Origin: Dacryopinax spathularia
Taxonomy: Eukaryota; Basidiomycota; Dacrymycetes; Dacrymycetales; Dacrymycetaceae
Assembly: GCA_037974965.1 (NCBI GenBank)
Contig: JBBPFI010000013.1
Location: 992,001-1,056,000 of the forward strand
DNA: 64,000 nt
Direction of reading: 5' to 3'
Part shown: piece by piece, positions 20,783-43,689 of the stretch
How the letters are laid out: each line of letters starts with the position of its first letter
How positions within the stretch are numbered: the stretch's first letter is position 1
Position numbers and translations under genes: made by a program
The notes under the pieces: generated by a model
Seen by the model: the letters and a program-made list of their open reading frames with translations, nothing else
The model's database searches: none
Told to the model about the DNA's origin: nothing

Positions 20783-20797
20783 CATCAGGAAAGATGC
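20783..20797 (+). repeat. Left terminal inverted repeat of the Plavaka element
   Basis: CATCAGGAAAGATGC. The first 10 bases are an exact inverted match to 43678-43687, and TGC matches the next TGC of the right end with a two-base difference between. Confidence 0.7.
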
Positions 20798-20811
20798 AAA
20801 CACATATCTAT

Positions 20812-21110
20812 GCCTGTCTAGGCTCTCTATCAAAACAAAACCGCCTAGGCTGTATACAACCTTACGCTACTAACTAGTGCCTGCCTATTAAAGACATGAT
20901 ATGCAGCCTAGGAAGCATAGGGTCTCTATACAGACTAGGAGTGTGTCCACCTAGATGTACCCTAGGTAAGGGAAGAATTCCCTAGGCTCTACGCGAGGTA
21001 TTTAGCATGGAGATCTGAAACCCATGCTGTGTATGAGGCCTCTCATAAGTTGTCTCTCCCTAACGCTGCCTAGGAGAAATACAGCACAGACAGGATGCCT
21101 TAGGCTAGTT
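20812..21110. repeat. Left subterminal motif region
   Basis: About nine copies of a CCTAGG/CTAGGCT/ACTAGG-type word within 300 bp (TGTCTAGGCTC, CGCCTAGGCTG, CAGCCTAGGAAG, ACCCTAGGTAAG, CCCTAGGCTCT, TGCCTAGGAG), together with TCTCTATACAGACT. Dense subterminal repeats are typical transposase-binding regions of CACTA-like elements. Confidence 0.6.
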
Positions 21111-21413
21111 CCCATGGGTAATCTTATGGTACTATAGAAGTTTTGCTGCTGGTAAAGTTTTACCATTTGAAAAGATTATCATGAACAAGGAGGCCCTACA
21201 GGTATTGCATGTGAAAAGGGGGTTTTCTGATGTAGATGGTTTTTGTTTGAAGGAAAAGGTCTTTCTTTCTATTAGGGTTAGCAGATAAGAATGTGGCAAA
21301 GCGGTAATGGTTGAGGGGCGCTCAGGGGGGTTCCATCTCATTACGTTTACCCCTTTAATTTCCTTCTGGAATTGGAGGACATATCATTTGCAATACTATG
21401 GGACATGCTTCTT

Positions 21414-24159
21414 CTAGCTAGGCTGGATTCCCCTCTGCTTGGGCCGGTAAAAAACCTGCGGGTCATCAGAGGCGATGCTTCTAGTTTCTTCATCGCTTTC
21501 CTCCACTAAAGCATCCAATTCCTGCTTATTCTGTAGCAGGTTCCTAGAGGCTTTCATTAGCAGATTGAGAATGTGAAATAATCTGAACGCACCTTGCCAA
21601 GGTTGACAATCTGGTTTGCATGGTTTTGCATTCTTCTGGCTCGGATTTCCGGAAGAGGCGAAAGTTTTTTCGAAGAATCTTCTTCGCCATCTTGTTACGT
21701 GGAGTGGGTTGGAAGAGTGTGCCAGCTCTGTGTCCCAGTCTCCAATCGGACAGGGCATGGAAAAGCTAGGGGGGCGCTATCAACTGGGTGGGCTCATGAT
21801 GAGAAATTTACTCACCGCTGTGCAGATTGCCATTAATGCCTCGGAAGGAAACGGGGTGAAGAACTTTGGAAGAGCTAAAGCATCTCCAGTAGCTCGAGGG
21901 GAGTTGTAGAAGCAATGCGCTGCAACATAGATGATGGCATCATGTAGGAACATACCCTCAAGTTCCTTCTCCTCATTGAAGACCTCCACATTGCTATAGA
22001 TAAAGCGGTAAGTGGGTCGCTCCTCTGTTCCCAAGAGCCATTCCACAGCGCGGGCAATGGAGGATCCGTCGCCCCCCAGAGGGGTGATGAAGTGGGCATT
22101 GACAGCCTCCATTGCCTTCAACCGGAGTGTGCTTCTGGCGGAGAGTAGAGATTGATGTATCTGCAGAAACTCAGACATGGCTGGGAATGGATGTTAAGTG
22201 AACGGGCTCTTACCACCTGTTTGATCCCATTCTCTCGGAGGGGCGTAATCTCAGGCTTCTTATGCTGCTTGGCCCACTGGTTCCCATATCGAACCGCAAT
22301 CTCCATGTTCTTCTCCCTGGTGGCATGGTCCGGCCAGAATGCCCGTGGAAGAACAACGTGAAGCACACGGTACATTCTGCAAGCAGCCATGATGGTGAGC
22401 TGCATGGATTTGGTGTAGCCTCCCAGCTGTTCGGGTTTCCCACCAGGGCGGACACACTCGTCTGGCGAAGGGCTAGGTGCTTCCTGGGGTGTAGCAGAGC
22501 CTCTTGCTTGAAGTCGGGATCGCTTGGCTACCTCCTAGTATGTATTTTCTTTCAACAAGGTTGTTGCTGAGTCAACACATGAAAGCACGTACCTGGTGAG
22601 CTCTGGTTGTGGCCGCTCGCTTTCGAGGATGGCCTGTTACTCTCTCCCCACCTGAACGGCTTCTGCGGTCTTCCTCATCCTCACTGGAATTGGCCTGCTC
22701 CACTCCCCATTGAGAGTTCGCCGTCCTACCAAGGGTGGTTGCCTATGCCGAGCCTCGTTAGGGAATCAATAACATTGTATTCTCCCACTCACCTTAGAGC
22801 CACCCGGGGCTACAGATGGGTCACGCCTCAATCGATCCAAGAAAACCTTTAACTTTCGGAGACTCAGCTTCTGCATGCCAGTTTGGTTTCCTGCTGACCT
22901 GCACCGCCCCATCTGACTCAGCGCCTTCATCTTCAAAGTCTGTCCCTGGTTCCTGCTGCCCTTTGACCGCCTTAGGGCTGCCTTCCCACTCTTCTTCTTC
23001 TTCGACAGGATCCAACCATTGGTTTCCTTTTTCCCGCTGTTCAAATCACTTATCAACTGAACTGGCAGGAAATAAGACATGGACAAACAGCAGAGAATCG
23101 AGATTCCAGATTCGAAAGTTTGGATACCGTCCTTTTTTTGGCCGCTATCCTTCCTGCGCGTGGTTCTGTTTCACCCTGAACACCGAGAGAGTCATGACAG
23201 CTTCAATGTCAGGGAGGGGCTGACATACTACGACCCCCTCAGCTTCTTTGCCCCATCTGCCCCTCAGGAAGGGAGGCTCGCCTGACATGGCAAAGGGAGT
23301 CAGCAATCGGCTCTTGGGACGGGTGGACAGCATACCACTTGTATCACTTTCCATGCTACTGTCCGTCAACTCCTCTCCATCCAGGCTCTGCAACTTTGTG
23401 ACCTCTCTCTCACTCCCGCGCCCCTCCCACTCATCATCCACTCTATCCCCTTCCTCCTCCTCGTTCTCATCCTCATACTCACCCTCGTTCTCACTCTGAT
23501 TCTCATCTTCATCCCCACGGACGTCATCCTCCACCTCATCTATCCCTTCCTGCCTGGATTGTCGTTCCCGGACGAGGACTGTGCGGGCGCTATGCGTAAT
23601 CTGTTGTTTGGCGGGGAATTCCTTCTGCTTCCTTTTGTTTGCATGGTGGGGCGCTGGGCCAAGTTCAAGACTTGCCGTCTCTTGCCGTTCGCTTTGCGAC
23701 TTCATGGAACCTATGAGGGATCAGGAAGAGCAAGAACAGGCGGCCACATTAGTGGGGCGTACCATTCCGACGGCTGAGCGTTTGACGATTGAGCTCAAGC
23801 AGATTATGGTGTGGCAAAGGCTTGGTGCTCTGCAGTATAGGTCAGCACGAGTGGCACAGCGCAGGAGTAGGATGGGCTACCTTAGTCTTAGCCGCGTGGT
23901 TGAGGCGCCCCCTATTGGTAGGGACGCGTCTTCCTTCCCGCTCAGCCGGTCTTCGAGCATCGCGTGTCACTTTTCTCCTAAGCGCTTCTGGGTCCTCCAC
24001 ACCGGGAGAGGATTCCAGCCCTTCAAGCATATCAGAACAGGAGGGAGACAGTCTGAGACTTGGGTCCGCTTGACCTTGAAGGCGACGTGACCGGCGAGGG
24101 CTTTCATTGCCTAGTTGAGATGTAGAACCTTCGTGCCGCCGTCCACGCCTTGTAGCCAT
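21414..24159 (-). CDS. DUF6532-like protein (element cargo)
   Basis: Likely start ATG at 24159 (MATRRGRRHEGST). The N-terminal half is disordered and charged: Arg/Pro-rich, then a long Glu/Asp run near 23400-23540 and a Glu-rich piece near 22950-23015. The C-terminal half is folded. It contains ACRMYRVLHVVLPRAFWPD, NGIKQVVRARS, YSNVEVFNEEKELEGMFLHD and ALPKFFTPFPSEALMAICTA, a pattern I associate with DUF6532 domains of agaricomycetes, then a tail ending FYRPKQRGIQPS. Several introns are implied; only some borders are clear. DUF6532 has no known biochemical role. It is the leftmost cargo gene and is transcribed towards the left end. Confidence 0.6.
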
Positions 24160-24317
24160 GCCTTGGCCTGTTAGAGGGTACCTGAGGAGAAGGCCAATGT
24201 CAATGGCGATGAAGTTCTTTGATGTCGGGAATGGTGCAGTGGTGGTAGGGTTGAAAGGGAGGCACAGGATAGAGCGGCAGTACAAACTCTACGCCAAGGC
24301 TGTGCAGGGGCTGTGTA

Positions 24318-24421: not shown

Positions 24422-25770
24422 CTATTGTACTGGCCAGCCATTGTGGTCACGTTCCCATGCCGCCCAGCTGCTGTCTCCATGCAGAACCACCGTGCCTCTT
24501 CCCCCTTTGAAATGGAGATTAAAGTGTGTAATTCGTTTGGAAGGAAATATGACCATGTCCCCCGCCTTAACCTCCACAACCAACCCTGCCTCGTAAAGGA
24601 CAATCTGGCCGCCTTCAAAGTCACCAAATACGAGCAGGACGCAGACACCGTCCTCTGGATCTTTCTCGTCTCTGTGCGCGGTTACGCAGCAGTAAAGGTT
24701 GACGACAAAAGAGGGGAAAGGGTGAGAGGGTAGAGCAGTGTTAAGGGTTGGCTCCTTGACCAGTGCCGAGAGGATGTGGTATTCTTTGGGCAGGCGAGTT
24801 CGGACCTGTGCCAAACTAGGTAGCTGGGCCACACACTTGCTAGGATAAAGAAGCTCACCGTATCACTGGCATGATCAAACCAAGATTGCCAGATTCTGAG
24901 GAGGTCATGGTAGGCTGGATAGTCATCCACAATGTCTCAGCTCGGTCGAGGGGCTCTGGCATGGCTGTTCCCACCTAGAAGAAAGCCGTCGGCCCCAGAG
25001 TCCTCACCATGGCCCTTATTGCGTCGTGAGTACGTGCGCCTGAACATTGTGGAGTGCTCACCCTTTGCGAGTACCGGTTCCAGTGGCTGAATGATCGGAA
25101 GGAGAAGAGGTTGTTTTCAGAAGAGTCATTTCGGATATCTGGTTCCTGAAGTGCTGCTAAAGTTCTGGGCCACAGGGAGACTTTCCAGTCCTGGGGAACG
25201 GAGTTTCGTGCGGCTAGGTAGCAAATCAGGCTGCTTGCTTTCGAACCTTGACGGCCGGCCCAGCCTTGTATGCAGAGGTCACGTCTGTAAAGCGATCAGG
25301 CGGCTCAGATGCGTATTGAATCCCAGGTTCCACTCACTCTGGCAGCGGCTGCACTCGCAAGTAGCTGGGCCCAACTCGCAGGCCGTTTTCTGTAAAGGCT
25401 CTTTCCAGCTGAAGGCGCGTGAGAAAGTTGCGCTAGTATTGGCTTCTAATTGAACTGACTTGGGACTCCAGGCAACTGAGGTCAACCCAAGCAGGCGCCT
25501 GATCCGCTTGCATTCGCTCCTTTCTTGTGAACTGCTCTCGATCTCTCTTTCGGAAAGGCTCTTTCTTGTTGCCCTCCGCATTGAAGTTAAAACGGGTCTG
25601 AACGTTGTGAAGTGGGCGCCCTGTGGCAGGTAGAAATGGTTCCTCTGCGTCTGGGTTGCCGCCCAAACGACGCAATTCCTTCGGTGCTGATATGCCAGAG
25701 TAGGCCGCCGGCCTGTCCTCCGGCGTCTGCCACGGAGCGAGTTGGTGGTTGCTAATCGGCAGGGGGGGGT
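24422..25770 (-). CDS. TET/JBP-type 2-oxoglutarate/Fe(II) oxygenase (element cargo)
   Basis: The C-terminal exon (stop at 24422) carries the catalytic core: AHRDEKDPEDGVCVLLVFGD with the HxD iron pair (about 24669-24680), GDFEGGQIVLYE, KAGDMVIFPS, ITHFNLHFKGGRG with the distal His and the 2-oxoglutarate-binding Arg, then W.RDHNGWP. This matches agaricomycete TET/JBP proteins associated with Plavaka and KDZ transposons, which are expected to oxidise 5-methylcytosine or thymine in DNA. An upstream exon reads DDYPAYHDLLRIWQSWFDHA. An N-terminal exon, about 25430-25770, has SAIDSVNPPLPISNHQLAPW and AAYSGISAPKELRRLGG. The start exon was not found. All metal and co-substrate ligands are present, so it may be active. 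Confidence 0.75.
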
Positions 25771-25876
25771 TGACAGAGTCTATGGCTGACTGGAATGATG
25801 CATCCCGGCCAGGTAAGCAAATGTCTCTATGTCTGCAGTCAGCTTTTTGATTTGTGCTGCTCTGGGCCTCGTTTTC

Positions 25877-27330
25877 TCACCCAAATCGAAAAAAGTCCTC
25901 AAAGAACGAATCCGAGGCACCTAAATCTGCCCCGAAGGAGGTACCCAGCGCGTGAATGGGGTGGGAGCACATCAAGGCAGCAAGGGTAGGGTAAAGCCGC
26001 TCGACAATGGCCTTTCGGAGCAAGCCGGAGTGGCCTACAATGATGTCAGAGAAAATCAACTTCTGGTGGAAAATCTGACCTTCAGTGGGCAATGACTCTG
26101 GGCAGCGCAAGGCCACTGCCATGCTTCGAATTGTCGAGGTATTTGCGAGCCGAAAGCGGTAGCGTCTTGCAGAGGCGGATACTAAAAGGACGAAATGTAG
26201 GGATCCTGCAGGGGCCGAGTGAGGGACCGCTTTGTGACAATGGCTCGCCTGAAAGCTCACCGGCTTGGGCAAGCCGAGCCCACTTCGTGCCAGTTGCAAC
26301 GATGTCAGTCAGCCTCCGGACCACAGCATCCTCCTTGGTGGTGCGCAAAGGCTGCTGAGAAATGTGGCCTTCGTACAGCTGGCGCATTGTCAGACCTAGA
26401 CCCTGTTTCAATCTGCCACCCAGTAAGCTAAGCAGATCGCCCCTGGGAGGTTTACTCTTACCGGGAAACTATGCTGGCGAGCCGGAGGTACAGGAGGCAT
26501 TTCGAGAAGCTGGCGATATTCATGTTTGCTTCCAGGTTGATAATTGAGTTGTAAGTTCGGAGAATTTCCTGGCCCAGAGTCTTCGCTTCGTCGGCCTGCA
26601 TGATGGGCAGGTCAGACAGGCAGAGGTTCTGGTTGCCAAAGGCCAAGAGTGAGTCCTCCCACTCTTGGCCAACACATCCCAGACTCGAAAGGTGCTCTTG
26701 CAGTGATATGTTGGCCAGGTCGCAAAGCAGCTCCACTGCCTCCGGCAAGGGCTCCTGAAGCGTGGCCAACTCAACGTCCAGGAGGCGGTGCTTGGCTTTG
26801 GGCACCGAGCCCCGAGTGGAAGGGGTGGGTAGGAGGGGGGTAGGCAGGACTGCGGCAGTTTCTTTGCCGGCTCGCCCCTGGCTCCCTCCGCCGTCTGGTA
26901 TCCTGCCGCCTCGGCCGTTCTTCCTCTTGCTCTTTCCCTTGTGGGCCTGCACGCGCGGCCCCTCCTGATCTCTCTTCCGTTTTCCGCATTGGTTGAGAGT
27001 GGGTAAAAGGGGAACAGCTGTGCCCTTCTGGCCGGGAGCACGCGTCTTGTCTCGCTCTTCCTCTAAAGTTTGCTGCCGCAGCCCCTCCTGGTTGGCGCTT
27101 ATGCTCTCAGCAGTCTCCGCCGCTTGTGCAACCTGGGGTTCGCCCTCCTCTTCAGTGGGCTGGTCAGAAGAGGCAACTGGCAGAAGGCTCTCTGAGGGCA
27201 GGGGCAGCTTAGCAGCCAACTCAATCTGTTGCATGACGTAGTTTTGTTCAGAGGGCAATAGCGGGCAGTCCGGTTGATCTCGAGCATAGTTTAAGAGGCG
27301 CAAGACAAGCTCCTGCATTTGTGACTCCAT
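25877..27330 (-). CDS. Unknown cargo protein with disordered basic middle
   Basis: Start ATG at 27330 (MESQMQELVLRLLNYAR). The first exon runs to about 26460: an N-terminal helix, then a long Gln/Glu-, Lys/Arg- and Gly-rich low-complexity middle (KGKSKRKNGRGGRIPDGG), then a folded helical part (LPEAVELLCDLANISLQEHL; GQEILRTYNSIINLEANMNI). Later exons probably include KQGLGLTMRQLYEGHI and FHQKLIFSDIIVGHSGLLRK, ending DSFFEDFFRFG. I do not recognise the family. Palindromic elements lie about 100-210 bp upstream of the start. Confidence 0.55.
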
Positions 27331-27434
27331 CGTGGCCGGGAGAGATAGGCAGAGAGACAGCTGGCGCAGTGCTAGGGCGGGGGAGAGAAAGACAAGCGTT
27401 GAGATGCGGCCAGTCCTGGCCTGAAGGAACATAT

Positions 27435-27450: not shown

Positions 27451-27500
27451 TTCTCTTGATGGCCACGTGGCAAGGAAGACCCCCTATCGAATAGCAGCAA

Positions 27501-27540
27501 TTGCTTCCGGACCTCCTGCCGGCAATAGGTCCGGAACCAA
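27501..27540. promoter_or_regulatory. CCGGACCT palindrome, copy 1
   Basis: Arms TTGCTTCCGGACCT and AGGTCCGGAACCAA flank a CCTGCCGGCAAT centre. Two more copies with nearly the same sequence lie at 32573 and 36293, each within a 5' intergenic region of cargo genes. A dimeric regulator site or a hairpin is possible. Confidence 0.75.
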
Positions 27541-27668
27541 TTTTGCTCTGCTAGGGTCCGGGCATCCTCCAGCCGGCTGAGCCAGCAAGATTCCAAACAA
27601 TCCAGATTTATTCCTCATGCTAAAGGGTGCTTGGGGCGGGTAGAGGCGAAAAAAAATTGAACTCTGGC

Positions 27669-30600
27669 TCACTCCAGGCCAAGGGAGCTGGCGGAATCCT
27701 CAGGGTCTTCTGCCCTGGCAGCTGCCTTTGCCACCCGCTGGGAGCGCCGAGTGGGTGGCTGGCCCTTAGGCCTCCTCCTTATCACTTTGGGCCGCACCTC
27801 CTCCTCTTCGCTAGGAGAGTCCTCCTCCTCTGGCTCCTCCTCCTCCTCTCGCTGCTCCTCCTCTGCCCCCTCCTCCTCTGACTCCTCCTCGCCCGCTTCG
27901 CCTCCACCATCCTCATCCTCAGCCTCCGAGCCGCCAGACTCCTCATCCGCATCACCGTCTTCCTCATGCCCCCGCTTCTTCCCCTTGCTCCGGGACTGCT
28001 TGAGCTTGGCCTGAGCTTTCCTCTTTGCCGCTCGACTCGCCGGGGTAGCCATCACTGAAGCTGAAGTTGTGCCAGGGGCCATGCTAGGGTGACGCAAGGA
28101 GACCTCGAAAGGTGCGATGAAATAGCTGTTGCAGTGCCTCACGCCCCAACGCCTCCAAGTCGTCTCCTTGTTCCACAACGCACCCATGACCTCACGGGCA
28201 GCGCAGGCAGCGAGCTTCCACATGTTCAGGTAGGCTGAACTGCGCAGGAGATCCTTCCTAGCGAGCGTGTCCTGAGGAGTTTCCGGCTGATACCATAAAA
28301 AGGACTGATTCATGATCATGTAGAGGAGGCACCAGATATCCTCCAGGTCGCAGCCTAAGTTGAGGACTGGTGAAATGAGCATTGGGTGACAACAAGTCAT
28401 GGAGAGTCTCACCGGGATTGGTATCGCCTTCGTCATCGCTGCCCGCCTCCTTGTCACTGTCCTCGCTGTCGCTGTCAGGGAGATCTTCCCTGGGGCGGCG
28501 CCAGCCCTCCCACTCCAAGTTACGAGCATCCTTGCTCTCATACAGATTTCGGTGCAATTCCATCATCATGGCAAAAAGCCAGATATGTCGATGAGGTGAG
28601 TTGCCATTACTGTAGTCGTCTCCATGGCAAGCCTCCTGAAGACGATAGCGCAATGTGTACTTCAACGTGGAAAACGAGTAGAAGTAGTTGACGCGGCAGG
28701 TGGCATGCTTGACAGTGAGACTGGCCAGGAAGCGAGGGGCAAGAAAGCTGGAAAGGAATGAGCGGTGCTGCCTTTCGCTGGAAAAGAAGCGTACAGGGTG
28801 TCTCCGGGGTACAAGATGACCCCTCCTGCCAGGGGGTCATCCTCTTCCTCTGGGAGATTCTCAATTGCGTCGCAGGCCTTGAGCGCTTGGAAGTCCTCCC
28901 CAAATACGATCCACAGCTCAGACCCTTCCTCACAATGGATGGCAGTGCAGGCCCCAGCTGCAGGAACTCGGGGTCGAACCCAGGCGCCCTGAGTTCGCCA
29001 GGATTCGGTTGTGTCCGAATGCAGGGGGGGTTCGAGAGGATGAGGGAGCTGGGCTAATGGGAAAACTGAATCCCAAGAAGTGTGGGAGGAGGCAAAAGTC
29101 CTGGGACAGTCAGCAAGGAACTGCCTGGGAAGGTGTCAAGGAACAAGGCCTACTCGAAATGCGGAATGCCAGTTTGCCCATCATCGCCATTCGCCACAGC
29201 GCTGCTTGCAACAGGCATGTCGCTCAAACACAGGACGGGGTAATTCTCCCGCGTCAGCTTCAGCAATTCGGGCATGTCTCCTGCCCTGAGCGGCAAGCTG
29301 TGAGCGCCCCGCTTCGTCGGATGCTCCACCGCATGCTCTTGAGCCCCGGGCGGTAGATCGCATTGGACTGAGTTGGTCAGCAGGGCGCCAAGAAATGGGA
29401 GTAGATTTGCTTACGCTCAGGAAACTTGAAGGCATCGGGGTTCCTTGCACCCCAACTAACGGCATCTACATTGGGACGAGGAAAGTCGCTGCCTCGGAAG
29501 ACAATTCCGTCATTGTCGCTTAACAACCTGAGCAGCTTGCGCTTGGAGAGAATCGGATCCTCGCCGGTGTCAATGTCCACAATAGCTCCCTTTACCCCTT
29601 TGGGGAGGCTGCGTCTCTTCTCTGCGGCCGGAAGAAGCCTGGTAATGCGGGCCAGGCCTTTCGCCGCACTCAACATGCGGGCCTGCAGAAATGTGAGCGA
29701 GTTCATCGAGCAACCTGCAGCGGGGATACATACATTTGCATCCCCAGACCGGCGTGGAAGCTCAATCTCCCCCTTTAGACCATGAATGTCAGTGAGTTCA
29801 ATCTGCGCAGCAGAAAGTTAGCAAAGCCTATTTGTAGAAAAAGCCCACGCACTTTAACTACATCTGGGGTGGTGCTGAACTGCTCCACAGCGGTGTCGTT
29901 GATGAGATCAGCGAGCTCTTTAATGGCTACGGTCTGAGGCAACAGGGCGTCGTAGGCGAAGGCCGGATTCTTAGGCAGAAGGACACTGCTCTATGGGAGT
30001 TGTCAGAGAGTGAAATCAGGGAAGGGAATTGAGGGGGACGCGGGCCTACCAGATTGCCCATGAATCGAGCCAAAGCATCTGGCAAAATCCCTTTGGGGTC
30101 CGCGTTATCATCGATGGCCTTTTGCACCTTCTTCGAAAGCGCTCGATCAGGGAGGCGAATGTGCACCGGCGCAAGGAAGTTCGCCGCATTCAAGGGTTTG
30201 CTCTTGTCGTCTGGGTCCTTAGGAGGCTTGTTGCGCTTGTCCTTATTCTTGTCTTTATCTTGCTCGGGGGGAGGGTTCTCAGCAGAGGCAGGATCTCCCT
30301 GAGGCGGTGCTGGCTCCTCTTCATTAGTATCAGCCGTCCCCGCTCCTTCGCCGCCTGCATCGTTGGGGCCGGGAGTGGTTCCCGCCGGCTCATCTTGCTG
30401 TGCGTCACCACTTGGCTGATCGACATCCATGTCCCTTCCGGAAGGAGCTTCATCTTGGTTGGGGGGAGGGTTCTCAGCAGAGGCAGGATCTCCCTGAGGC
30501 GGTGCTGGCTCCTCTTCATTAGTATCAGCCGTCCCCGCTCCTTCGCCGCCTGCATCGTTAGGGCCGGGAGTGGTTCCCGCCGGCTCATCTTGCTGTGCGT

Positions 30601-32572: not shown

Positions 32573-32616
32573 ATTTGCTTCCGGACCTCCTGCCGGCAGA
32601 AGGTCCGGAAGCAAAT
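32573..32616. promoter_or_regulatory. CCGGACCT palindrome, copy 2 (divergent promoter)
   Basis: A 44-bp near-perfect palindrome with arms ATTTGCTTCCGGACCT and AGGTCCGGAAGCAAAT. It lies between the divergent cargo genes starting at 32344 (minus) and 32683 (plus), so it may serve both. CCCGCGGG at 32482-32489 accompanies it, as at the other two sites. Confidence 0.8.
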
Positions 32617-32682
32617 ATCACTATTCCCTGACTCCGCGCTTACTCCAGGAGCCACTTGACCTTCACCATCGACCACCACGAC

Positions 32683-34332
32683 ATGTCCGCCACAACTGGC
32701 AGTTTCTCTCTCATGAGAAGAGTGTTCGAGATACAAGAGCTGGTCGACATGATTGCAGAAGAAGTCCAAGCCGGCTGTAAGAAGGATGACAAGGACCTAG
32801 GGCAGTTTCTATTGGTGTCTCGGGCGACAGCGCGCGCCGGGCATCGGCTGCGCTGGGACGAACCAAATGAACGCCAGTTCAAAGAACTGCTGATGAGTCT
32901 TGGCCCTGTTTCTCCTTTGGTGAGTGCACTCCATGCCTCAGATTATACCCATGCTAAGATCATCTAGACGAGCTTCCGTTTTGGCCGGTATTCGTCCTGT
33001 ATGCGCACACTGTCGATCTCACTAGCGGAGCCAAACCTATCCCGGCTTCTACTGAAGGTTCTCTCCACTCCTATGTCAACCGGAGACTTCGCCTTTCCTA
33101 GACTTCGTCATCTGCATGTTCAAGTCCATCATCCTCGAGATCTAGAATGCTTCACCTATATGCTACATCCAGGTCTTCGCACACTGTCGGTGAGAGCCCT
33201 CGTCCCGCGAAGGCTGCACAGGTCGGAGTCTCTCCTGAGCACGGTCGCCCTCTTTTTCGGTGCAGTACAGCTGAAGTCTTCCAACTTGGAGAGGCTCAGT
33301 TTGTTCTTGTATCACGACTGTGGCTCTGGGCCTGAGTTGGGCAAGAACATCGCGACTATGTTGTCTGCATTGCAACATCTCAAGAGCTACGATACCGACG
33401 ACCTTCAATGTCCCGATGTTCTTCTCGCCTTGTCCTGCCTCTCAGACTTCTCCGAGCTGGTCATAGATGCTGATCGAGAAGAGCCCCTTGCGATTGCAAA
33501 TATACCCTCTACCACGCCGTTTCCCCCGCTGTGCTCCTCGCTACGGGACCTTCATATCACTTCCACGACATCGACGATCATTATCCTTCTGTCGGCTTGT
33601 CCGCCCACGTTGACGGACCTCTTCTTGAGTGTCACTGATGCCGTCTGGCCAAATCCTTCGGCTGCCGACGACCTCTGGCGCACGATATCCACCAGCTTCC
33701 ACCAACTGCAAAGCTTGTTCCTTTATAGTGGCTTTTTTCTCACCATGCCGGCTACCTGCCTCGAGTTCCTCGATACATCCCCGAATCTCTCCGCTGTTTC
33801 TATCGATGTGTGGGCGCCAATGACCGACCTGCTGAACGATCAGATACTTGGCCACTTTGCCGCTATGCACCCAGGTCTAACCATGGCCAACCTCTGCTTC
33901 CACCCAGCCGATAGCCCAGTGGAGCACGTCACCTCATCTCACAGAGATGGGGTGACTTTGCAAGGTGTTGTCGATGCCTTTCGCCATCATGCGAGCATCG
34001 AACGGATCACCCTGGTGTCCATTGAAGGTCGTATCACAGAGGCCATCCTCAAGCAGTTGGACGAAGCACCATCAGAAGCTACTGCGATGGAACCACTCTA
34101 TCGACCCCCTCTCCATCTGAGGGCAGAACATCTCTGGTCAGCACACGACCGCCCTTCGCTGCAAACTGACGCGCGGGCGCGCCACGGCACCCAGCTTGCC
34201 CAGTACATACTGAGTGCCTTCCCAAACCATGAAATCTCACTGGGATACACGGTGAGGGAGGATTTTATTTGGCGCATAGCTCGCCGCCATCTGGCTGGAG
34301 CTGAAGGCCCTTGGTGGGCGGATATACTCTAG
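32683..34332 (+). CDS. F-box/LRR-like protein (element cargo, plus strand)
   Basis: The ATG at 32683 opens MSATTGSFSLMRRVFEIQEL. One intron (about 32920-32972, GTGAGT...TCTAG) splits off a first exon whose helices (VFEIQELVDMIAEEV...FLLVSRATARAGHRLRWDE) fit a degenerate F-box. The second exon is a long run of Leu-rich beta/alpha repeats (LRHLHVQVHHP, LERLSLFLYHD, LRDLHITSTTS, LTDLFLSVTDAV). About 530 residues. Such proteins are greatly expanded in agaricomycetes and probably act as SCF ubiquitin-ligase adaptors. It is head to head with the large JmjC-like gene and shares its palindrome. Confidence 0.65.
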
Positions 34333-34529
34333 ATTTATGCGGAAGAAACGACCTGAACTGTGTGTATCTAAAGTTTTTCAATGCAATCACAAGGGTCAAT
34401 CTTCACCCTGAAGCGACCTGGGGGGCCCTCTGAGATAGGCGGTCTGGTTTAGGAGAATAACACGCGGACTATCGCGATTTGTACGGCCCTTCCATGAGGA
34501 AAGAAAAGAGGGATCCCGCCTCTAGACCC

Positions 34530-36173
34530 TCAACTGCTCCCTTCCTCAGGTTGCACGGCATCCACAGCGGCCCCCATGAATTGCCACAAACTCCCTTCCA
34601 CCCAGCTGGCCTTGAAACGTACCCTTTTGCATGGGAAGGAGCGACACAGATAGTTGGCAGAGGCCATGGCAGACCTCTTTTGCTCCGGCATGGTCAAAGG
34701 CATCGAGTCCCAACATACCAAAAAATGAAGGTAAAGGCGGCCTGACTCCTCCGAGTGTTCTTCATGATGGCATTCTCCAGGGAAAGGAGGCGAGAGATTG
34801 GAGAATCCGAGGTTCAGGGCGAGGGGTAGAGGGCCTCCTAGGCCAGGCAGGTCGATGCTTCGCAGTCGGCTTTTGCCCTGGAATGCGGCAACCACTCCAG
34901 GCAAGGTCGTGCCGTTTCGGACATCACGGGCTTCCCAGGCGCTTAGGCTGCCGTTGGGGGTGTGAAAGGAGATCGAAAAGATCTCCAACTCCTGTAAAGC
35001 CGTGGCAGCTCGGCTCAACATGGCATCGTCCACCTCCGCTGCAAATGAGCTGGTCGTGAGAATCCGGATGATCTTCAGCCTGCAGCAAGAGCGGAGGAGG
35101 CCAAGTGCCGTGGCGCAGGGAGGAATATGGGGATCAAATGTGATGTGGAGCACTTCAAGGGCTGCTGGCAGCGATCCCAGGAGTTCCTGCATGCGATGCC
35201 CACCCACTGAGTCTTCCGCAGCATCAGGAACCACCTCGGCTACTAGCTCAGTGACTTTGGGTGGGCAGGACTTGAGAAGCAGAAAGAGAACTCCCACCGG
35301 ACCTCGGCAGGTGAGCCCTGTCAAATTCGACAGGATAATGGGCGCTGACAAATCGAGAATGGCATGGCCTGGCAAGCTGTCACAACTGATACCCAGGTCT
35401 GTCAGGTGTGGGCAGCTTGCAAGTTGCCTGAGGAGATGCGTGCTGCTGCGAGAAGGGCGACGATGAGGGGGTGCAGGAGAAGGGGGCAACACCAGGGGGC
35501 TCGGACTCTTCGACCGGATGTAGAGCGCCACATCCTGCACCTGGGTACACTTGGCCAGAATGGCCTCCAGCAGTGTGGCTGCAGCGTCCATGTCGCCGTC
35601 TGGAAGCCTCATTGAGATTGTGAGATAGCGTAGATTGGGTGTCGCAACTCTCTCGATGCAGGCGAGATGCTCCAGCTTGTTCCCAAAAGTGTCCAGGCTG
35701 GTGATATTTGGGAAAGGGTGAGCCCCGTGGCGGAAGAACGCGTCGATGTTGTCGGAGAGATAGGATCGGAGCATCAGCGGCGGCTCAAAGGCACTCAGGG
35801 GAAGAGGGAGATGCCGAATGTAAGTTGAGCAACGCAGCACGCGCTGGACTGCCTGCGATAGGGTTGAACTGGGGGGCCCCAACGCGTATGGCGACGCACC
35901 TTGGCTGCTTGCGGCCCTACCCAGTCCTCCTCCATGAGGCACCATACATCCAGCGGCTTCGGGTCCCTCCAGTAATAGTCAGTGACTGCCGCTAGGGTCT
36001 CCCGTGTAATGAGCATGAGAGGTGGGAGAGGTTGGCTTCGCTCCTCCAGGGCTAGGTTGATAATCATGGTTGCCAGCTCAAGAACCTTGAAGACGCGCTC
36101 CCCAGGCGATTGCTGGTTGTTTGACTTGGAACACTGGCGTGCTTGGTCGCCTTCCATGACTGGAGACGGCATT
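34530..36173 (-). CDS. F-box/LRR-like protein (element cargo, minus strand)
   Basis: The ATG at 36173 (MPSPVMEGDQARQCSK) opens a first exon with VFKVLELATMIINLALEE and LITRETLAAVTDYYWRDPKPLDVW, an F-box-like helical unit. After an intron near 35890 the second exon is Leu-rich (LRYLTISMRLPDGD, LTDLGISCDSLPGHA, LEVLHITFDPHIPP, LQELEIFSISFHTP). About 520 residues, similar in design to the gene at 32683 and convergent with it. The CCGGACC palindrome lies about 120 bp upstream. Confidence 0.62.
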
Positions 36174-36292
36174 TGAAGCCCAGGAGGTATGGGGAGATGG
36201 TGGTAGAGGAGAGAAGGGCGGAGACGCGGCTGCAAGGGCCTGGCAGGGAGAGCTTAATTTCTTCCGCATAAATTTCTGACCCCGCGGGCCTC

Positions 36293-36334
36293 TTTGCTTC
36301 CGGACCTGCTGCCAGCAGAAGGTCCGGAAGCAAA
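36293..36334. promoter_or_regulatory. CCGGACCT palindrome, copy 3
   Basis: Arms TTTGCTTCCGGACCT and AGGTCCGGAAGCAAA around a GCTGCCAGCAGA centre, upstream of the F-box-like gene starting at 36173. Confidence 0.78.
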
Positions 36335-36356
36335 TACACGTGGCCATCAAAAGCAC

Positions 36357-36370
36357 CCCGCGATCGCGGG
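36357..36370. promoter_or_regulatory. CG palindrome CCCGCGATCGCGGG
   Basis: A perfect 14-bp palindrome 23 bp from the CCGGACC palindrome, the same pairing as at 27.4-27.5 kb. A shorter CCCGCGGG also occurs at 36281-36288. Confidence 0.6.
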
Positions 36371-36448: not shown

Positions 36449-37702
36449 CTAAGCCACCGCCGGACCCATGCGCCGTGGGGGCGAGTGGTGAACGCTGATG
36501 TACTCGTCTGCCGCCCCGAAATACTTGAAGGCCCAGTGGGTCTCTGGGTCCTGGCTGCTGGCATGCGCCCCATCCTCTCTAACAAGAAACGTCAGTGTGC
36601 TGGCCCGCCCTCTCGATTGAGAAAGCACGGCGCACCCGATCAAGACCTTGAACACCAAATCTCCTTTAACAAAGCCAGGTGCGTCCACAAAGCCATCCCT
36701 CGCGGGGTGCTGTTGCAGCCAAGTATCGGCGTCAATCAGGAAGCTTGCGATCCGGTCACAGCGCGTGGCAGAATACCCCAACTTGTGGCCGAAAAGGACA
36801 TATGCTCTTGGGGAATAAGGGGTTCTCACGGCATATAGAATATACCAACTGGGGTTGATGCGGGCGCCACTCTTCCGGAGGAGGCTGACCCACTCAAGGC
36901 GATAACCCAGAAGCCGGCCCGGTAGGTCGCGATTGTCGGGCGTTTCTTCCAAGTGCTCCAGGAGCTTTCCATAGGACTCTGCTGGGTGGCGACAGCGGTG
37001 GGTGAGGATGGTGCTTCCTGCCTCCTGAAAGCCGTATGGCACCACTCGGAGGGGTCCAGGAAACGGGTAAGGGCCAAACTGAGGCGGGGGCCCATGCAGC
37101 AGCTCCCTGAGCTCTTCTTGAATGGTGGGGCTGAGAGGCACCGTAGCCTGGACAGGTTGCTCAGGATTGGGGACAAATCCCGTGTTGGGCTGAGACGGAA
37201 GAGTCGGCCAGATCTGCCGGGGCATGCCGAACTCCACCATGCGGGCGCCCACACTATTGGCAACGGCAAGGGCTGTCAAAGTGGGGTTTTTCGCAAAATA
37301 TACCTTGTGCTCCGCACGCCCGCCAAGCAAGACGGCCCCAGCCTCGACAGGCTTCCAACCAGGCGCTTCTGCTGGAATTCCAGCAGTCAGCCGATACCGC
37401 TGCCACGTGTCGTACGCGTACCGATCGATCGTTTCCGCGGCGGCGAGCTTCGAGGGTTTGACGTCGGGGCGAGCGGCTCGGAGAAGATTCAACAAAAGCT
37501 TCTCGCTATACGGTTCGGGGTGGACGCTGAGTGAGGCCACAGGTGGGAGAGGGCGAGGAGCGTCTGTGACAGCTGGGCCGCTGGGTGGTGGCTGCAAAGC
37601 TGCAAAGGGGTGGAAAGTCTGAGGGTAAACACCATAGGCTGCACCCCCCTGTTGCGCAAAAGGAGGGTTTGTGGCTGGCTGGCCTCCAGGCGGCAAGCTC
37701 AT
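36449..37702 (-). CDS. Unknown 417-residue cargo protein, single exon
   Basis: An uninterrupted frame from ATG 37702 (MSLPPGGQPATNPPFAQQGG) to a stop at 36449. The first 80 residues are Pro/Gln/Gly-rich and probably disordered. The rest looks folded (YAYDTWQRYRLTAGIPAEAP, YVLFGHKLGYSATRCDRIAS, FVKGDLVFKVLIGCAVLSQS, WAFKYFGAADEYISVHHSPP). No motif I can name. It lies between the minus F-box-like gene and the kinase. Lack of introns in so intron-rich a region is mildly unusual. Confidence 0.6.
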   Translation of the reverse strand: MSLPPGGQPATNPPFAQQGGAAYGVYPQTFHPFAALQPPPSGPAVTDAPRPLPPVASLSVHPEPYSEKLLLNLLRAARPDVKPSKLAAAETIDRYAYDTWQRYRLTAGIPAEAPGWKPVEAGAVLLGGRAEHKVYFAKNPTLTALAVANSVGARMVEFGMPRQIWPTLPSQPNTGFVPNPEQPVQATVPLSPTIQEELRELLHGPPPQFGPYPFPGPLRVVPYGFQEAGSTILTHRCRHPAESYGKLLEHLEETPDNRDLPGRLLGYRLEWVSLLRKSGARINPSWYILYAVRTPYSPRAYVLFGHKLGYSATRCDRIASFLIDADTWLQQHPARDGFVDAPGFVKGDLVFKVLIGCAVLSQSRGRASTLTFLVREDGAHASSQDPETHWAFKYFGAADEYISVHHSPPRRMGPAVA

Positions 37703-38137
37703 AGTGGAATGGGGAAGAGAGGGAAGAGAAGTGCTTTGCTGGGTGGATTTGAGGAGGCAGGAGGAGGTTAGCTGGCGAGGCGCCTAGCCACATCGCGCCT
37801 TTTAATCCCCCAAGAAGCATGGTAGGTGGAGGTAAAAAGAAGGCGGGAGCCTCGGGCGGCTATTAGGCGCCCAACGCCTGCCACTTGAGCAGCGGGCATG
37901 GGGAGGCCTCTGAGCCCCACATGGGCAGAACCCATTGATCACGTGACGAGAAACCATTTCCGGGCAGAAGGGTGGGGGGCGATGCGAGCTTGCTCCTTGC
38001 TTCCTACCACCACCTTACCAACCCCCCTGGCCCCCATGTCTATCCTCCGGAAGGCATTCTGTCCACACCTTTGGCTGCTCTCTAGTGGTTCCACCTCTGG
38101 GAGAGCGCTCGCAGCCTCTCCAAGCCTTCCAGATGCG

Positions 38138-39827
38138 ATGGAGAGCGCCCCGCACTCCCCTGAAGCCGGAGAAGGTTCAGATCTTTCTCCAGCACGATCG
38201 ACAGATCTAGCAACTGTAACGCCCAACGAATCATCACCCCTGCAACCGCCACTGCCTCAGGCCCTTCCCCTCAATGGCGATGCTACCCTTGGTGCGAAGG
38301 CGGCGGCAATGGGGAGGGAGCAGCTGAGCCAGCAACTGGCAATCTTGCAGCGCCACCGGGATGCTGAAGGGCGCCACGATTATGCAGAACTTATGGCGGG
38401 AGCCATGTATCTCTTGCCTGACCGCTCTGTGATCCTTATCCACAGGAAACTTGGCACGGGGATGGCAGCCACGGTCTTCTTGGCGCAAAAGCTACGGTGA
38501 GTAAGGGTCTTGCTTATGGGGAGCAAAACACGCTAACTGCTCTAGACAGTCCCAGAAATGAGCCACCCCGGTTTTGTGCTGCCAAAGTCCTTTCTGCCGG
38601 CTTCTCCTCAACTCCGGGAAAGATGGAGCTGGATTTTCTCCGCCGCATCGAGTCTTCCAGCCGTAGCCACCCGGGCCGAGCGCACGTGATTCGCCTGCTT
38701 TCCACTGGTTGGATGCAGAGCCCCTTTGGGTGGCATGCGTTTATGCTTCTACCGCCCCTGGCTCAACAGCTTGATCGAACCATGGCGTCTGCACTTTCAT
38801 TGCAGCAGAAGAAGAAGGTTCTCTGTGAACTCACACAAGCCGTTGCTTATCTGCATGATGAGTGCGGAATAATTCACGCAGGTATGCCTCTCAGCTCCGG
38901 GGCCCAGCGGCCTGGCTGAATCAAGGGAGGGCAGATCTGTCCCTCTCAAATGTTCTCCTCAAAGTTCCGGAAACCCTCAACGCCTACGGCATAGCCTTAT
39001 CAAAAGAAGCATGGATCGATGTGGAGATTGCTCAGAGCCCATCACGACCGGGTCTTTGGGTCGACCTGGACATCAGGCAAGAGACCATCCGCACCCCCTT
39101 GGCCATTGATCAACCTTTACAACTTTCTACATTGGAAGATATCAGTGTCTGCATTGTGGACTTCAGCGCCGGTGAGTCTTTGGATGCCGTGCGCTTCCGA
39201 GTTGCCATCCTCACCAAGTCTGCGCAGCGGAATGGAACACAGGCCTTCACAGCGGGCTCATTCAGAATGAGGCAACACGAGCCCCAGAGGTCACGCTAGG
39301 CGCTGAATGGGGTGCCTCTGTTGACTTATGGAGTCTGGGCCACATTGTCAGCTAACCCTGAATTCACTGTTACCACCGCCGCTGACAGGAGATGCAGTGT
39401 TTTCAGTTACTCACAGGAGAAGATTTGGTTGGCAACCCCCCTTTGGGAGTGGGGGCATCAAAGGATGCCTATCGGCTTGCGACGTTGGTTGCTTTGCTGG
39501 GAACAGACGCTTTCCTGCTGCAAGCCCCCAGGGCTGCGGAGTTCTTTGATGCACTGGGTGCGGCCTGGAAGCTGTGCGGCGAGCATGCAAGTTTTATTAA
39601 CCAAGTGTTCCCTAGGAATGCCATTGGCTACGGACTATGTTCCCAAAGCCTCGTTGGAGCAGCGGCTGGCTCCCTTCTTTTCTTCTCTCCCGGAAGAACT
39701 ACCCAAGTGCCTTGATTTTCTCTCTCAGCTTCTCGCCTGTGACCCATCCCAGCGAACACGGGCAGCTGCTCTCCTACAACATGCCTTTCTCTGCAATAGG
39801 GGGGAAGAGCCGGAGCAATCCGTCTAG
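38138..39827 (+). CDS. SRPK-like protein kinase (element cargo)
   Basis: Spliced gene. ATG 38138 is the likelier start; an in-frame ATG at 38037 is possible. Kinase parts in order: LGTGMAATVFLAQ (Gly loop); CAAKVL (ATP-binding Lys); ECGIIHA|DLSLSNVLL, where a 51-bp intron falls inside the catalytic loop and restores HADLSLSN; CIVDFSAG in place of DFG; TRAPEVTLGAEWGASVDLWSLG (activation/APE region); FQLLTGEDLVG; and LACDPSQRTRAAALLQHAF at the end. The wide insert between catalytic loop and DFS and the TRAPEV.LG..W motif point to the SRPK group, expanded in basidiomycetes. All key catalytic residues look present. Confidence 0.72.
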
Positions 39828-40054: not shown

Positions 40055-43000
40055 ATGCCCCCGGCCCGCAGGGTGAGAAGCAGACAGAAGACGTCACCCT
40101 GTCCACACTGCAGGAAGCTGTTCGTAGGCGAGCGAGGCGTTTCCGTCCATTTGTCACGATCCTCAAGCTGCCGGAGTTGGCTTTCCGCTTCGCTGTCGGA
40201 GCCAACCCCCTTGTTGTCTCTTGACAACCTGCAGGGCTGGCAGCTTGACCCAGAATCCGACGCAGATGTGTCAATGAGCACTGAGCCAGGCGGCAACTCT
40301 CCGCACCAATGCTTCCCTGACGGTCATCTTGTTCTGGAGGAGAGCCTGCAAGAGCCATGCCTCAGCCAACACCCACTGACCAGCGGACTGCCCATGGACA
40401 CGGAGCAAGCGGCCTATTCTGGGGATGTGAGCCCATCCTCACCTTCACCTGCAGGGGCTGCAAGCGTTCACAGAACGTTCCTGGGGAATGGCTTCCATGA
40501 GAAGGTCATGGGTTGGGCACCGACGGTCTGGGAAGAGATCCAAGCAAAAGAAGCTCAGACAGGCAGCATTTTTGCCGGGTTTCGGGATTGGGCAGAGTGG
40601 GAGGTTGTTCACTTTCTGAAGACATCGAGCCTGACGCAGGGGACCATCAAGCGCTACTTGAAGACAGAATATGTGAGGATAGCAGCCCACTGGCCCAAGG
40701 GATCATGTGCTCAATCTTCACGTACTAGGTCGCTGCCCGGCCTTTTTCCTTCAACAACGTTGCTCAGCTGAATCGCAAGCTCCAGGCCTTGCCAGGAGGG
40801 CCCAAATGGCGGCACACCACCATTCGGATGCAGGAGGCACTCAATCAACCCCGGGATCTGCTCTACCGCGACCCTGTGGAATGTTTGGAATACCTCCTGA
40901 GCAATCCTACATTTAAGGATAATCTGATACTGGAGCCCTATTTTGAGTATACCGACGAATCCCTTTCTGAGCGACTCATCAACGAGATGCCAACAGGGAA
41001 CTACTGCTGCGAAGTTCAGGTAAGTGCAGTTGTTGGTTTTGAGGGAGCGAAAGAAGGAGAGCTGATGTAGTGATTCTAGAGTACCCTCCCAGCGGACACG
41101 ACCTTCCTTCCGATTATCTTTGGCTCTGATAAGACTCATCTGACAAGCCACTCGGGGGACAAATCTGTCCACCCAATATATATCACCACTGGGGCCATCC
41201 AAAAAGCAGTGCGGGCAAAGACCAGCACCCGGGCTTGGTTGCTCCTTGCTTATATCCCCACGGATGGCTTCACTGGACACTGGATCACCAAGACCGAGCG
41301 GCGCACCATGCAGAATCTCCTCCTGAAGCAGATGTGGCATGCCTGCATGCGCCACATTACTCAACCCCTTGTCACAATCGCAACCGTTCCTCGGCGAATG
41401 GTTGACTCTTTTGGGCGAATTCTCAAAGTGGTAGCCCGAATTGCTGCCTGGTCGGCAGACATCCAAGAGCAGCTCATGATCGCCTGTTTGTCCAGCAATA
41501 GCTGCGTCTCCTGCCTGGCCTCGGTTCACCAATTTGATGACGACGTGGAACACCCCCCTCGGACTGGCCAGTGGATTTTAGGGACCCTCCGGCGGCTTCG
41601 AGAGGAGCACCCAAATCTCAGCCCTTACAAGTTCCAACAGCTCTGCTCAAAGGAAGGCCTGAACGGCGTGGAGAAGCCCTTTTGGTCGCATCTACCCCAT
41701 TTCGATATTTGCAGCGTCCTCACACAAGATGTGCTGCATGGCCTGCATAAAGGTTTCTTCGACCACACAGCCCAGTGGGTTCTCGACACTGTGGGGAGAG
41801 AAGAAATGGACGTTCGACTTAAGAATGCACCAAGAAGTCCTGGCATGGAGTATTTCCCGCGAGGTATCAGCACTATATCACAATGGACTGGAAAAAAACA
41901 TCGCACCCTTGAGAGGCTTATCCTCCCATCTGCTGCCAGCGCAGAAGGGATGACACCAAGGGCCATTCGAGCGACCAGAGCACACCTCGACTTCATTCAC
42001 CTCGCACGATATCCCAGCCACAGCAGGAGTACCCTGGGCTATCTAGATCGGGCCAAGATGGAGTTCTTCAAGCACCGGTGGGAGTTCGTGCAGAATGGAA
42101 CACGGTCCCAGGGCCATTTCCAAGTAGCCAAGCTCCACAATCTCAGCCATTGGAGAAGCAACATCGAGCTACTAGGAACCCCAGACAACTACAACACGGA
42201 AACACCGGAGCGTTACCATATTGAGTATGCCAAACAAGCGTACCGGGCCACCAATAAGAAGCAATATATAAAGCAGATGGTCACCTGGCTGGACCTTCAA
42301 GAGAAGATCCAGGCATTCCACGCATACTTGACCTGGAGGCTTGGGCCCGTGGCATCTGGGGGAGGGCAATTGGACGACCTTCCGGGAAACATCGATGATT
42401 TCTCTCCAGACTTGGAGGTGGAGGATGATCAGATTATGGGGGAGCAGGCGGAGATGCCGGCATTGTTGGAAGAAGAAATATTAGCGGGTGGGTAGTATTG
42501 CCTTCTTCCTGAAACTTCCCGCTGAGAACACCCAGACCCACCGGCAGCTGGCATGATTCTGTCATCCAGGCATGCTTTAACCTCCAAACCCCATCTGGAG
42601 AACATACCCCTTGCGGAGGCTTCACAACTGTTTGCCCTCCCCGAGTTGAAGGAGAAATTGCTGCTTTTCTGCCTCAATCGGGCCAGCCCTGAAGGCAGGG
42701 AGATTCACAAGATTCCACCAGGCACCCGGTTACCAGGGGAATTTGCACGCTTGGACATCTGGTTTCACGTCCGACTCTCTCTGCCCAAGCTGGATGAGCA
42801 ATTTGGAATCCAAGGCAGCAGACTAGTCCGCGCTCGACCTTCTTCAACGGGACCAGCGGCCAACTCCCTTAGTAATCGCGCAAAGAAGTTCTTGCAGCCT
42901 GAGCAACAATGTGATCCGGTCCTTGTGGCCATTGATCCCCACTTGGCAGGAAGTGAGACACTTTCTGGTATGCTCCAGTCTTCCCCTTGTCCTTTTTAGC

Positions 43001-43366
43001 GGTTTCTCACCACCCTTTCCAGGCTTACAGGCAGCAAGGCTCCGGATTATTTTCCGTGGCAGCAATGCCCCCCTTGGGGGCACAGCAACAGAGCCCCTTG
43101 CACTTGTTCATTGGTATACTAAAACAAAGCCAGAGCCAGAGCCACACCTCCTTATGTACAAAGTCTCCAGGCTGAAGCAGCAAAACGCGGGTAAGGCTGC
43201 TGCTCATGTCATCCCCCTTTACTCTGTTGTCCGTAACTGCCCTCTTATTCCTGACTGGGGCAAAGAAGCCGACCCTGCCCTCACGCATTCTAACGCGCTA
43301 GACTCCTGTCAAAAATTCTATATCAACTCATTTGCTGATACCTACACCTACATGTCTACTTACTAA
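40055..43366 (+). CDS. Plavaka-type transposase
   Basis: The ATG at 40055 opens MPPARRVRSRQKTSPCPHC, a C2H2-like finger (CPHC...GVSVHLSRSSSC). Exons continue through GTIKRYLKTEY, VAARPFSFNNVAQLNRKLQ and PKWRHTTIRM. The family hallmark is in the exon from about 41080: LPIIFGSDKTHLTSHSGDKS, then HPIYITTGAI, TSTRAWLLLAYIPTD, HFDICSVLTQDVLHGLHKGF, and ETPERYHIEYAKQAYRATNK (probable catalytic Glu region). C-terminal exons end HVIPLYSVVRNCPLIPDWG and KFYINSFADTYTY. All expected sections are present in order with consensus introns, so the gene may be functional. It mobilises CACTA-related Plavaka DNA transposons. It lies next to the right end and is transcribed towards it. Confidence 0.88.
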
Positions 43367-43479
43367 TACAAGTCCCTCCAAAATAAACACACTCAAAAAC
43401 CTTTCTTTCCCCTGCCCTAAAGTTCTAAAGCTAAACCTGAAGCAATCCTGAGCAATGCAAAGTAAGCCAAGTTTGACAG

Positions 43480-43677
43480 AATGACCTCTATACAGACTGT
43501 GAAACATAGCGTAACTATGTCACAATAGGGAACATAGGTTAGCATAGACGGTTAACGCGGAGCATAGGGATTTTTTTCATATCATAGGCTGCATAGACAA
43601 CATAGGGATTTTCTAGCCTATGTCATTACAGCATTGCTAGGCTCCCTACACTAGCTACCCTATATATTTAAAGCACG
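43480..43677. repeat. Right subterminal motif region
   Basis: AT-rich stretch with CTCTATACAGACTGTGAAACATAG (shared TCTATACAGACT with the left end at about 20930), repeated CATAGG/CATAGGGATTTT words, CTAGCCTATG and GCTAGGCTCC. Confidence 0.6.
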
Positions 43678-43687
43678 TTTCCTGATG
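43673..43687 (-). repeat. Right terminal inverted repeat of the Plavaka element
   Basis: GCACGTTTCCTGATG. The last 10 bases are the exact inverse of the left end. AC (43688-43689) follows and matches the AC before the left end. Confidence 0.7.
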
Positions 43688-43689
43688 AC

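Follow-up and report, generated by a model that had tools for sequence, protein, structure and literature searches.

The window analysed here is a stretch of 64,000 nucleotides from the basidiomycete Dacryopinax spathularia (C13:992001-1056000; the genome comprises 29.2 Mb in 24 contigs, cited by C and number). Within it, a helicase gene is interrupted by an element of 22,905 bp that ends in short inverted repeats and carries a Plavaka transposase together with a set of other genes. The account that we hold to be very probable is that of an intact-looking giant cut-and-paste transposon of PlavakaB type, inserted in a subtelomeric helicase gene, with resident genes and a proposed regulon of its own. 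The genome contains three such large relatives, measuring 22.9, 37.3 and 38.8 kb: this element and copies A and B on C8. All three share termini, 2-bp target duplications and, in the parts read, gene order. The name Plavaka reportedly goes back to Iyer et al. in 2014.

Limits of the element and the interrupted gene

The whole element occupies positions 20783-43687 on the forward strand. It begins with the left terminal inverted repeat (TIR) CATCAGGAAA (20783-20792, forward strand, 10 bp) and finishes with the right one, TTTCCTGATG (43678-43687, reverse strand, 10 bp), and these ends are identical to those of copies on C11 and C5 and of both C8 elements. The left junction reads GAGGAC and then CATCAGGAAA, the right junction TTTCCTGATG and then AC GATGAGG; the two copies of the AC target duplication lie at 20781-20782 and 43688-43689. 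Both junctions confirm the perfect inverted ends flanked by AC described in the original prediction. The extent given there, 20783-43689, holds for the element proper up to 43687, its last 2 bp being one copy of the target duplication. The CCTAGG and CATAGG words noted near the ends were also recovered by counting, with five CCTAGG and one CATAGG in the first 600 bp and four CATAGG and one CCTATG in the last 600 bp. In C8 copy A, neither CCTAGG nor CATAGG occurs in the first 600 bp, and none of the three words occurs in the last 600 bp. Because they are missing from these matching end stretches, the subterminal words are family-specific.

A genome search with the first and last 300 bp, as had been proposed, returned other copies with the same ends. 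The first 300 bp are found at two places, the window and C11:1179358, where identity is 97% over 300 bp and 99% over 2.2 kb; this copy begins on the same terminal base in a different flank. The last 300 bp recur at C5:2109875 with 93-97% identity, again from the same terminal base and in a different flank, in a copy whose match extends over no more than about 520 bp at the right end. Copies ending at different points, which would have spoken against a single unit, were not what we found: the C11 and C5 copies match to the terminal base and the C8 relatives share the termini.

Some further observations concern such ends. The C11 copy runs into (TTAGGG)n telomere repeats at the contig end (about 9868-9999 within C11:1171681-1181679). 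The repeats begin where the element has an internal TTAGGG, which looks like the healing of a broken chromosome end. Ends of CATCAGGAAA type also lie about 3 kb from other Plavaka transposases at C3:557113 and C4:72112, possibly smaller PlavakaB elements, while exact CATCAGGAAANNTGC words at C7:1665318 and C3:416226 have no Plavaka transposase match nearby and may be non-autonomous or solo ends, or chance. A 1.24-kb block with strong hairpins (window 62760-64000) is about 98% identical near three contig ends and is probably a subtelomeric repeat; its other positions are 4764-6003 of L006 (C11:1171681-1181679) and 7421-8658 of L007.

The interrupted gene has its first exon, of 170 codons, at 20273-20782 (forward strand), and the remainder, with the DEAD and Helicase_C domains, at 43690-48475 (forward strand). 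In agreement with the original prediction, the frame stops at codon 170 (20782) and resumes in frame at 43690 with its acidic composition continuing. Loss of the insert would also leave an intact helicase frame, as had been proposed: with the insert omitted and the 43811-43862 intron removed, a frame of 1,747 codons is obtained, with a single terminal stop and a continuous acidic tract. Helicase paralogues were found by protein search, several of them near contig ends, and three were picked from the list for 93-95% identity of their matched parts (C2 at about 51.5 kb, C2 at about 14 kb and C10 at about 1,206 kb). The acidic tract is uninterrupted at the insertion point in all three; the frame is kept through it in two, the third having a frame break upstream of the tract. 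Paralogues that hold the same cargo as exons or introns had been named as a possible refutation, and none of these three tracts holds it. A second helicase paralogue lies in the window itself (3255-8483), uninterrupted and about 65% identical to the disrupted gene.

A subtelomeric RecQ helicase family has been described in Agaricus bisporus, according to the available text of PMC7473861. The disrupted host gene resembles this family (PMC7473861) in being multicopy, with several copies near contig ends. This likeness concerns the target gene and not the element, and the RecQ label stands here for location and helicase domains only.

Gene content of the element

From left to right, the order common to the window element and, in the parts read, its C8 relatives is DUF6532, TET/JBP, G45, leucine-rich-repeat (LRR) genes, G6, kinase and Plavaka transposase, and protein-level collinearity with copy A extends over window positions 21438-43372. 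At least eight extra genes had been predicted, which is slightly high: besides the transposase there are seven by our count, and eight if G45 is two genes. With a simple gene finder, neither the DUF6532 nor the kinase gene of the window element was recovered, the TET gene gave one exon only and the transposase came out incomplete.

The transposase gene expected near the right end is indeed there (40055-43366, forward strand, multi-exon). Its Plavaka domain (PF18759) is matched on one exon with an E-value (E) of 6e-66; a separate match over domain positions 1-325 has 285 bits, with three read-through stops that are taken as intronic, and DUF6830 is matched on the next open reading frame (ORF) with E 6e-6. 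At the other side of the element, the multi-exon DUF6532 gene (21414-24288, reverse strand, outer limits approximate) matches Pfam PF20149 with E 2.1e-12 and is collinear with copy A. It is followed by the multi-exon TET/JBP dioxygenase gene (24422-27432, reverse strand, limits approximate; Pfam Tet_JBP, E 5.7e-8). The residues HRD, THFNLH and GxRG of the latter are kept between the window and copy A; we take the first two to be the HxD...H metal site and the R of the third to serve 2-oxoglutarate. Searching PDB sequences with the TET exon gave weak PiuC matches only (best E 0.65). Across the genome, TET/JBP was matched four times, with three matches in the three elements and none above the Pfam cut-off. 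The fourth (C8:998044-998289) is outside the giant elements, with no Plavaka transposase match near it.

G45 (27669-32344, reverse strand) is a large gene of unknown family with a gene model of about 1,400 amino acids; it came out as one gene, with G4 and G5 joined, in one gene-finder run and as two in a looser run. All seven genomic matches to its N-terminal part are in the three elements. A structure model of this part had a mean predicted local distance difference test score (pLDDT) of 43 and was not interpretable. The C-terminal part had looked by eye like a JmjC domain, a reading that we rejected, as no Pfam family matched at E of 10 or below and the best match among PDB sequences had E 0.15. 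Pfam scans of further G45-type and other ORFs, and an NCBIfam scan of eight element ORFs, returned nothing convincing.

The two LRR genes follow. F1 (32683-34332, forward strand, start codon assigned by reading) shares 81-83% amino acid identity with its counterparts in the C8 elements. Its low-confidence AlphaFold model (mean pLDDT 59) gave Foldseek matches to LRR and F-box/LRR chains, with a best E of 1.5e-5 and TM-scores mostly of 0.2-0.5; the main ORF has no Pfam match, and the N-terminal exon is F-box-like by eye only. The genome search with F1 gave two close relatives, which lie in the C8 elements, a distant one (30%) at C6:1846103 and, more weakly, matches to other element LRR genes. 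F2 (34530-36157, reverse strand) is a paralogue of F1 with 26% amino acid identity, present in copy B and missing from copy A. Then come G6 (36449-37702, reverse strand), a conserved protein of unknown family with a collinear homologue in the C8 elements and no Pfam match, and a multi-exon protein kinase gene (37898-39827, forward strand) with Pfam Pkinase at E 2.1e-10 on a hand-spliced peptide and likewise a collinear homologue. DUF6532, G6 and the kinase were searched for genome-wide as DNA only. Neither a tyrosine recombinase captain nor an integrase domain was found in the 17 element ORFs scanned (E up to 0.1); the captain domain of Starships is, we assume, the one named DUF3435.

Relatives, central zone and palindrome

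Using 20 kb of the element as a query led to the two places on C8. Copy A (495732-533049) measures 37,318 bp and has an AA duplication, and copy B (757385-796139) measures 38,755 bp and has a TT duplication; both have exact CATCAGGAAA...TTTCCTGATG ends. With flanks included, all but 1,713 of 39,253 bases were read for copy A and all but 19,702 of 43,925 for copy B. The alignment of the two starts exactly at CATCAGGAAATGGCC and stops exactly at CATTTCCTGATG, with 94.6-98.5% identity in the main aligned pieces and unrelated outer flanks. Because similarity begins and ends at the termini, and each copy has its own 2-bp duplication, the comparison shows that a large unit moved together with its genes. 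Coding blocks differ by 0.45-1.5% between A and B and the remainder by 2.5%. A segmental duplication of C8 that included the flanks was also considered and is rejected, as the similarity stops at the termini.

Two observations on the copies stand apart. The right flank of copy B (C8:796613-797869) holds another Plavaka transposase on the opposite strand, so that B seems to be inserted in or beside another Plavaka. Copy A contains a 90-bp tandem repeat (C8:508578-509142), and alignment offsets suggest a different copy number in B.

CpG transitions make up 108 of the 338 A/B substitutions, CpG bases being 9.6% of aligned positions (odds ratio 4.7); in the pair formed by the window element and its C11 copy they are 4 of 18, too few to test. 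For the elements, the observed/expected CpG ratio lies at 0.66-0.68; the window flanks have 0.72 and 0.89, and five stretches elsewhere range over 0.68-1.00. The excess of CpG transitions fits past cytosine methylation of the elements and is no proof of it. An anti-silencing role for transposon-borne TET/JBP proteins has been proposed by Kojima (2025; PMC12730594, available text).

Between the window element and copy A, silent divergence (pS) outside the F1 block is 0.70-0.81, saturated or nearly so. Replacement divergence (pN) is 0.21 for DUF6532, 0.28 for TET, 0.34 for G6, 0.28 for the kinase and 0.18 for the transposase, and 0.43 and 0.48 for two parts of G45. These values come from a chosen subset of the tblastx-aligned blocks, and poorly aligned exons fall outside them. 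Saturated silent sites with conserved protein indicate that the backbone genes have been long carried and kept together. DUF6532, TET/JBP, G6, the kinase and the transposase are resident transposon genes and not random host cargo. In this sense, the claim of a single large cargo-carrying unit stands as regards one unit, supported by the C8 relatives; most of the supposed cargo is instead a conserved resident gene set plus a variable central zone.

In the window, the left backbone (DUF6532, TET/JBP) measures 6,716 bp and the right backbone (G6, kinase, transposase) 7,352 bp; in copy A they measure 7,099 and 7,731 bp. Together they come to about 14-15 kb. Between the outermost copies of a 44-bp palindrome lies a variable zone of 8,837 bp (window), 22,488 bp (A) or 23,977 bp (B). 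With its limits drawn at the palindromes, it accounts for about 95% of the difference in element size. In copy A it contains three G45 genes, one of them inverted, plus extra LRR genes. Compared with the C8 copies, the LRR block (window 32669-36370) shows 88-90% identity, the transposase about 71% and the kinase 64%; pS in F1 is 0.26. Because this block is far more similar than the backbone, its pattern implies that the two-gene LRR block crossed between element lineages after their split. At the junction left by the loss of F2, copy A has a GCAG microhomology a few bases from a palindrome centre.

In the window, the palindrome lies at 27499-27542 (left edge of the variable zone), at 32573-32616 (between the divergent genes G45 and F1) and at 36292-36335 (right edge of the zone). 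Its core, TTCCGGACC-N14-GGTCCGGAA with at most two mismatches, has 15 sites in the genome: three in the window element, five in copy A, six in copy B (one with 1 mismatch) and one elsewhere (2 mismatches). Thus 14 of 15 sites fall within the three elements, which make up 0.34% of the genome; the same core search found no sites at the C3:557113 and C4:72112 ends. Symmetry was assessed on ten copies read, nine of them distinct. Mirror positions are paired in 92.8% of cases. In shuffles the figure is 84.7%, and none of the 500 reached the observed one; in slid controls it is 23-50%. Cells changed on both sides number 12, compared with 4.9 in shuffles (0/500). For the six palindromes that were measured, three each in the window and copy A, the nearest modelled start codon is at a distance of about 67-190 bp, and palindrome 502.8 of copy A is upstream of TET, as in the window. 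Counting both strands, the window contains the half-site GCTTCCGG five times, always inside the three palindromes, and copy A has a few more outside its palindromes. We propose that the palindrome is probably a shared control site.

Known systems, rival explanations and meaning

The available text of Kojima (2025; PMC12730594) defines PlavakaB by 5'-CATCA..TGATG-3' termini and target duplications of 2 or 3 bp, and reports TET-bearing Plavaka in two species of Agaricales (Agaricus bisporus and Gymnopus confluens). Further criteria of the group are a transposase in the PlavakaB clade and C(2)C and H(3-4)H motifs between its second D and its last E. The window element and both C8 copies have 5'-CATCA..TGATG-3' termini, and the duplications AC, AA and TT of the three insertions are within the 2 or 3 bp of PlavakaB. 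Termini, duplications and transposase domain fit a PlavakaB-type assignment, which refers to these features and not to a clade position. The likeness extends to the presence of TET/JBP on board, whereas the described PlavakaB elements come, in that text, without a reported kinase, LRR, DUF6532 or G45 gene, 23-39 kb size or private palindrome (PMC12730594). Kyakuja, Zisupton and IS3EU also have transposon-borne TET/JBP with an inferred anti-methylation role, and the TET-bearing IS3EU families encode an alpha-kinase as well, but they differ in transposases, duplications and accessory genes (PMC12730594). Enlarged En/Spm (CACTA) elements of 16-20 kb with 4-5 ORFs in the red alga Chondrus crispus, as cited in PMC6431247, are likewise oversized and of the same broad transposase group; they are smaller, non-fungal and with fewer genes, and the available text mentions no palindrome-marked variable zone. 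Starships, giant fungal transposons defined by a tyrosine recombinase, are also large mobile units with accessory genes (PMC12134995, PMC13066641, available text); unlike them, the present element has a Plavaka transposase, TIRs and 2-bp duplications. A literature search, mostly without subscription papers or supplements, found no Plavaka of this size and no such palindrome or palindrome-marked cassettes.

In the account that we prefer, the element inserted into the subtelomeric helicase gene with a 2-bp AC duplication, and the Plavaka transposase presumably moves the unit as a whole through its CATCAGGAAA ends. TET/JBP may act to counter the host's methylation of cytosines in the element. The palindrome may be a shared cis-regulatory site that gives TET, G45 and LRR genes one control, a small regulon run by the element. 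After the split of the lineages, the LRR pair was exchanged between them.

The evidence bears differently on the other explanations. Subtelomeres collect insertions, and this counts for a pile of transposons, nested or adjacent, and host genes enclosed by chance between two Plavaka ends. That TET/JBP genes are spread over many fungal transposon lineages (PMC12730594, available text) would suit such a pile too. We nevertheless regard it as very improbable, since the two C8 copies, which agree in gene order and are near-identical between their ends wherever they were read, are at different sites with 2-bp duplications, and their backbone is collinear with the window element. Very unlikely, too, is a minimal Plavaka that recently acquired host genes as passengers: F1 has its distant relative (30%) outside the elements, at C6:1846103, and the LRR block common to the elements is much less diverged than the backbone, but G45 matches are in elements in seven of seven cases and TET matches in three of four, and five backbone genes combine saturated silent divergence with conserved protein (host DUF6532, G6 and kinase copies were not sought at protein level).

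More weight may be given to the idea that the palindromes are cassette boundaries for insertion, inversion, exchange and loss of modules, the central zone being an exchangeable gene array in a DDE transposon, although we find it unlikely as a whole. The concentration of about 95% of the size difference between the outermost palindromes (where the zone was drawn) agrees with it, as do the G45 module in both orientations in copy A, a palindrome between two gene 3' ends, the inclusion of its right palindrome in the exchanged LRR block together with a window-type centre in palindrome 781.4 of B, and the F2 deletion of copy A that stops within a few bases of a palindrome centre. A promoter site explains, on the other hand, why a gene start neighbours seven of the eight palindromes placed (window and copy A) on at least one side, and the half-sites of copy A away from palindromes suit a binding site. 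Moreover, at the left edge of the exchanged LRR block C8 has no full palindrome and, by eye, a short CGGAAGCAA-like remnant only; the GCAG microhomology of the deletion is ordinary for end joining, and no recombinase besides the transposase was recognised in the ORFs scanned. A combined version, in which an integron-like DDE transposon has a fixed backbone (ends, transposase, anti-silencing enzyme) and an open array of private G45/LRR modules whose edges are marked by a palindrome serving both as operator and as breakage or exchange point, seems to us rather unlikely. An integron-like cassette array would share the palindromes, but no integrase domain was found in the 17 ORFs.

Several points weigh against the preferred account of a giant PlavakaB-type unit with resident genes and its own regulon. 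The empty helicase site is, as far as sequence goes, indicated by paralogues and not by alleles, gene limits are approximate (from ORFs and homology), and the inner gene order of copy B comes from read pieces and search matches, with about 19.7 kb of its span unread. The Tet_JBP match, at 32.6 bits, is just under the curated cut-off of 34.9; two of the three G45-type matches of copy B show a stop; and the 52 A/B coding differences are spread over codon positions 1, 2 and 3 as 12, 18 and 22, so that recent selection on the pair is not demonstrated. The CpG ratio of the window element (0.66) is barely below the 0.72 of its left flank, and a subtelomeric stretch in another place is equally low (0.68). 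As for the regulon, the palindrome positions changed on both sides are five, a number reached by 54 of 500 shuffles, and palindrome 525.3 of copy A, between two gene 3' ends, is not predicted by a pure promoter role.

In the literature found, as far as its available text goes, giant gene-carrying transposons of fungi are mainly treated as tyrosine-recombinase Starships. Here a TIR-based Plavaka moves 23-39 kb with a conserved gene set, which means that Starships are not alone in having mobility on the scale of cargo. Searches of other genomes for such elements can use the palindrome and the terminus words as simple keys. Furthermore, with TET/JBP, a kinase, LRR proteins and a private palindrome in one element, transposon self-regulation and counter-silencing become directly testable.

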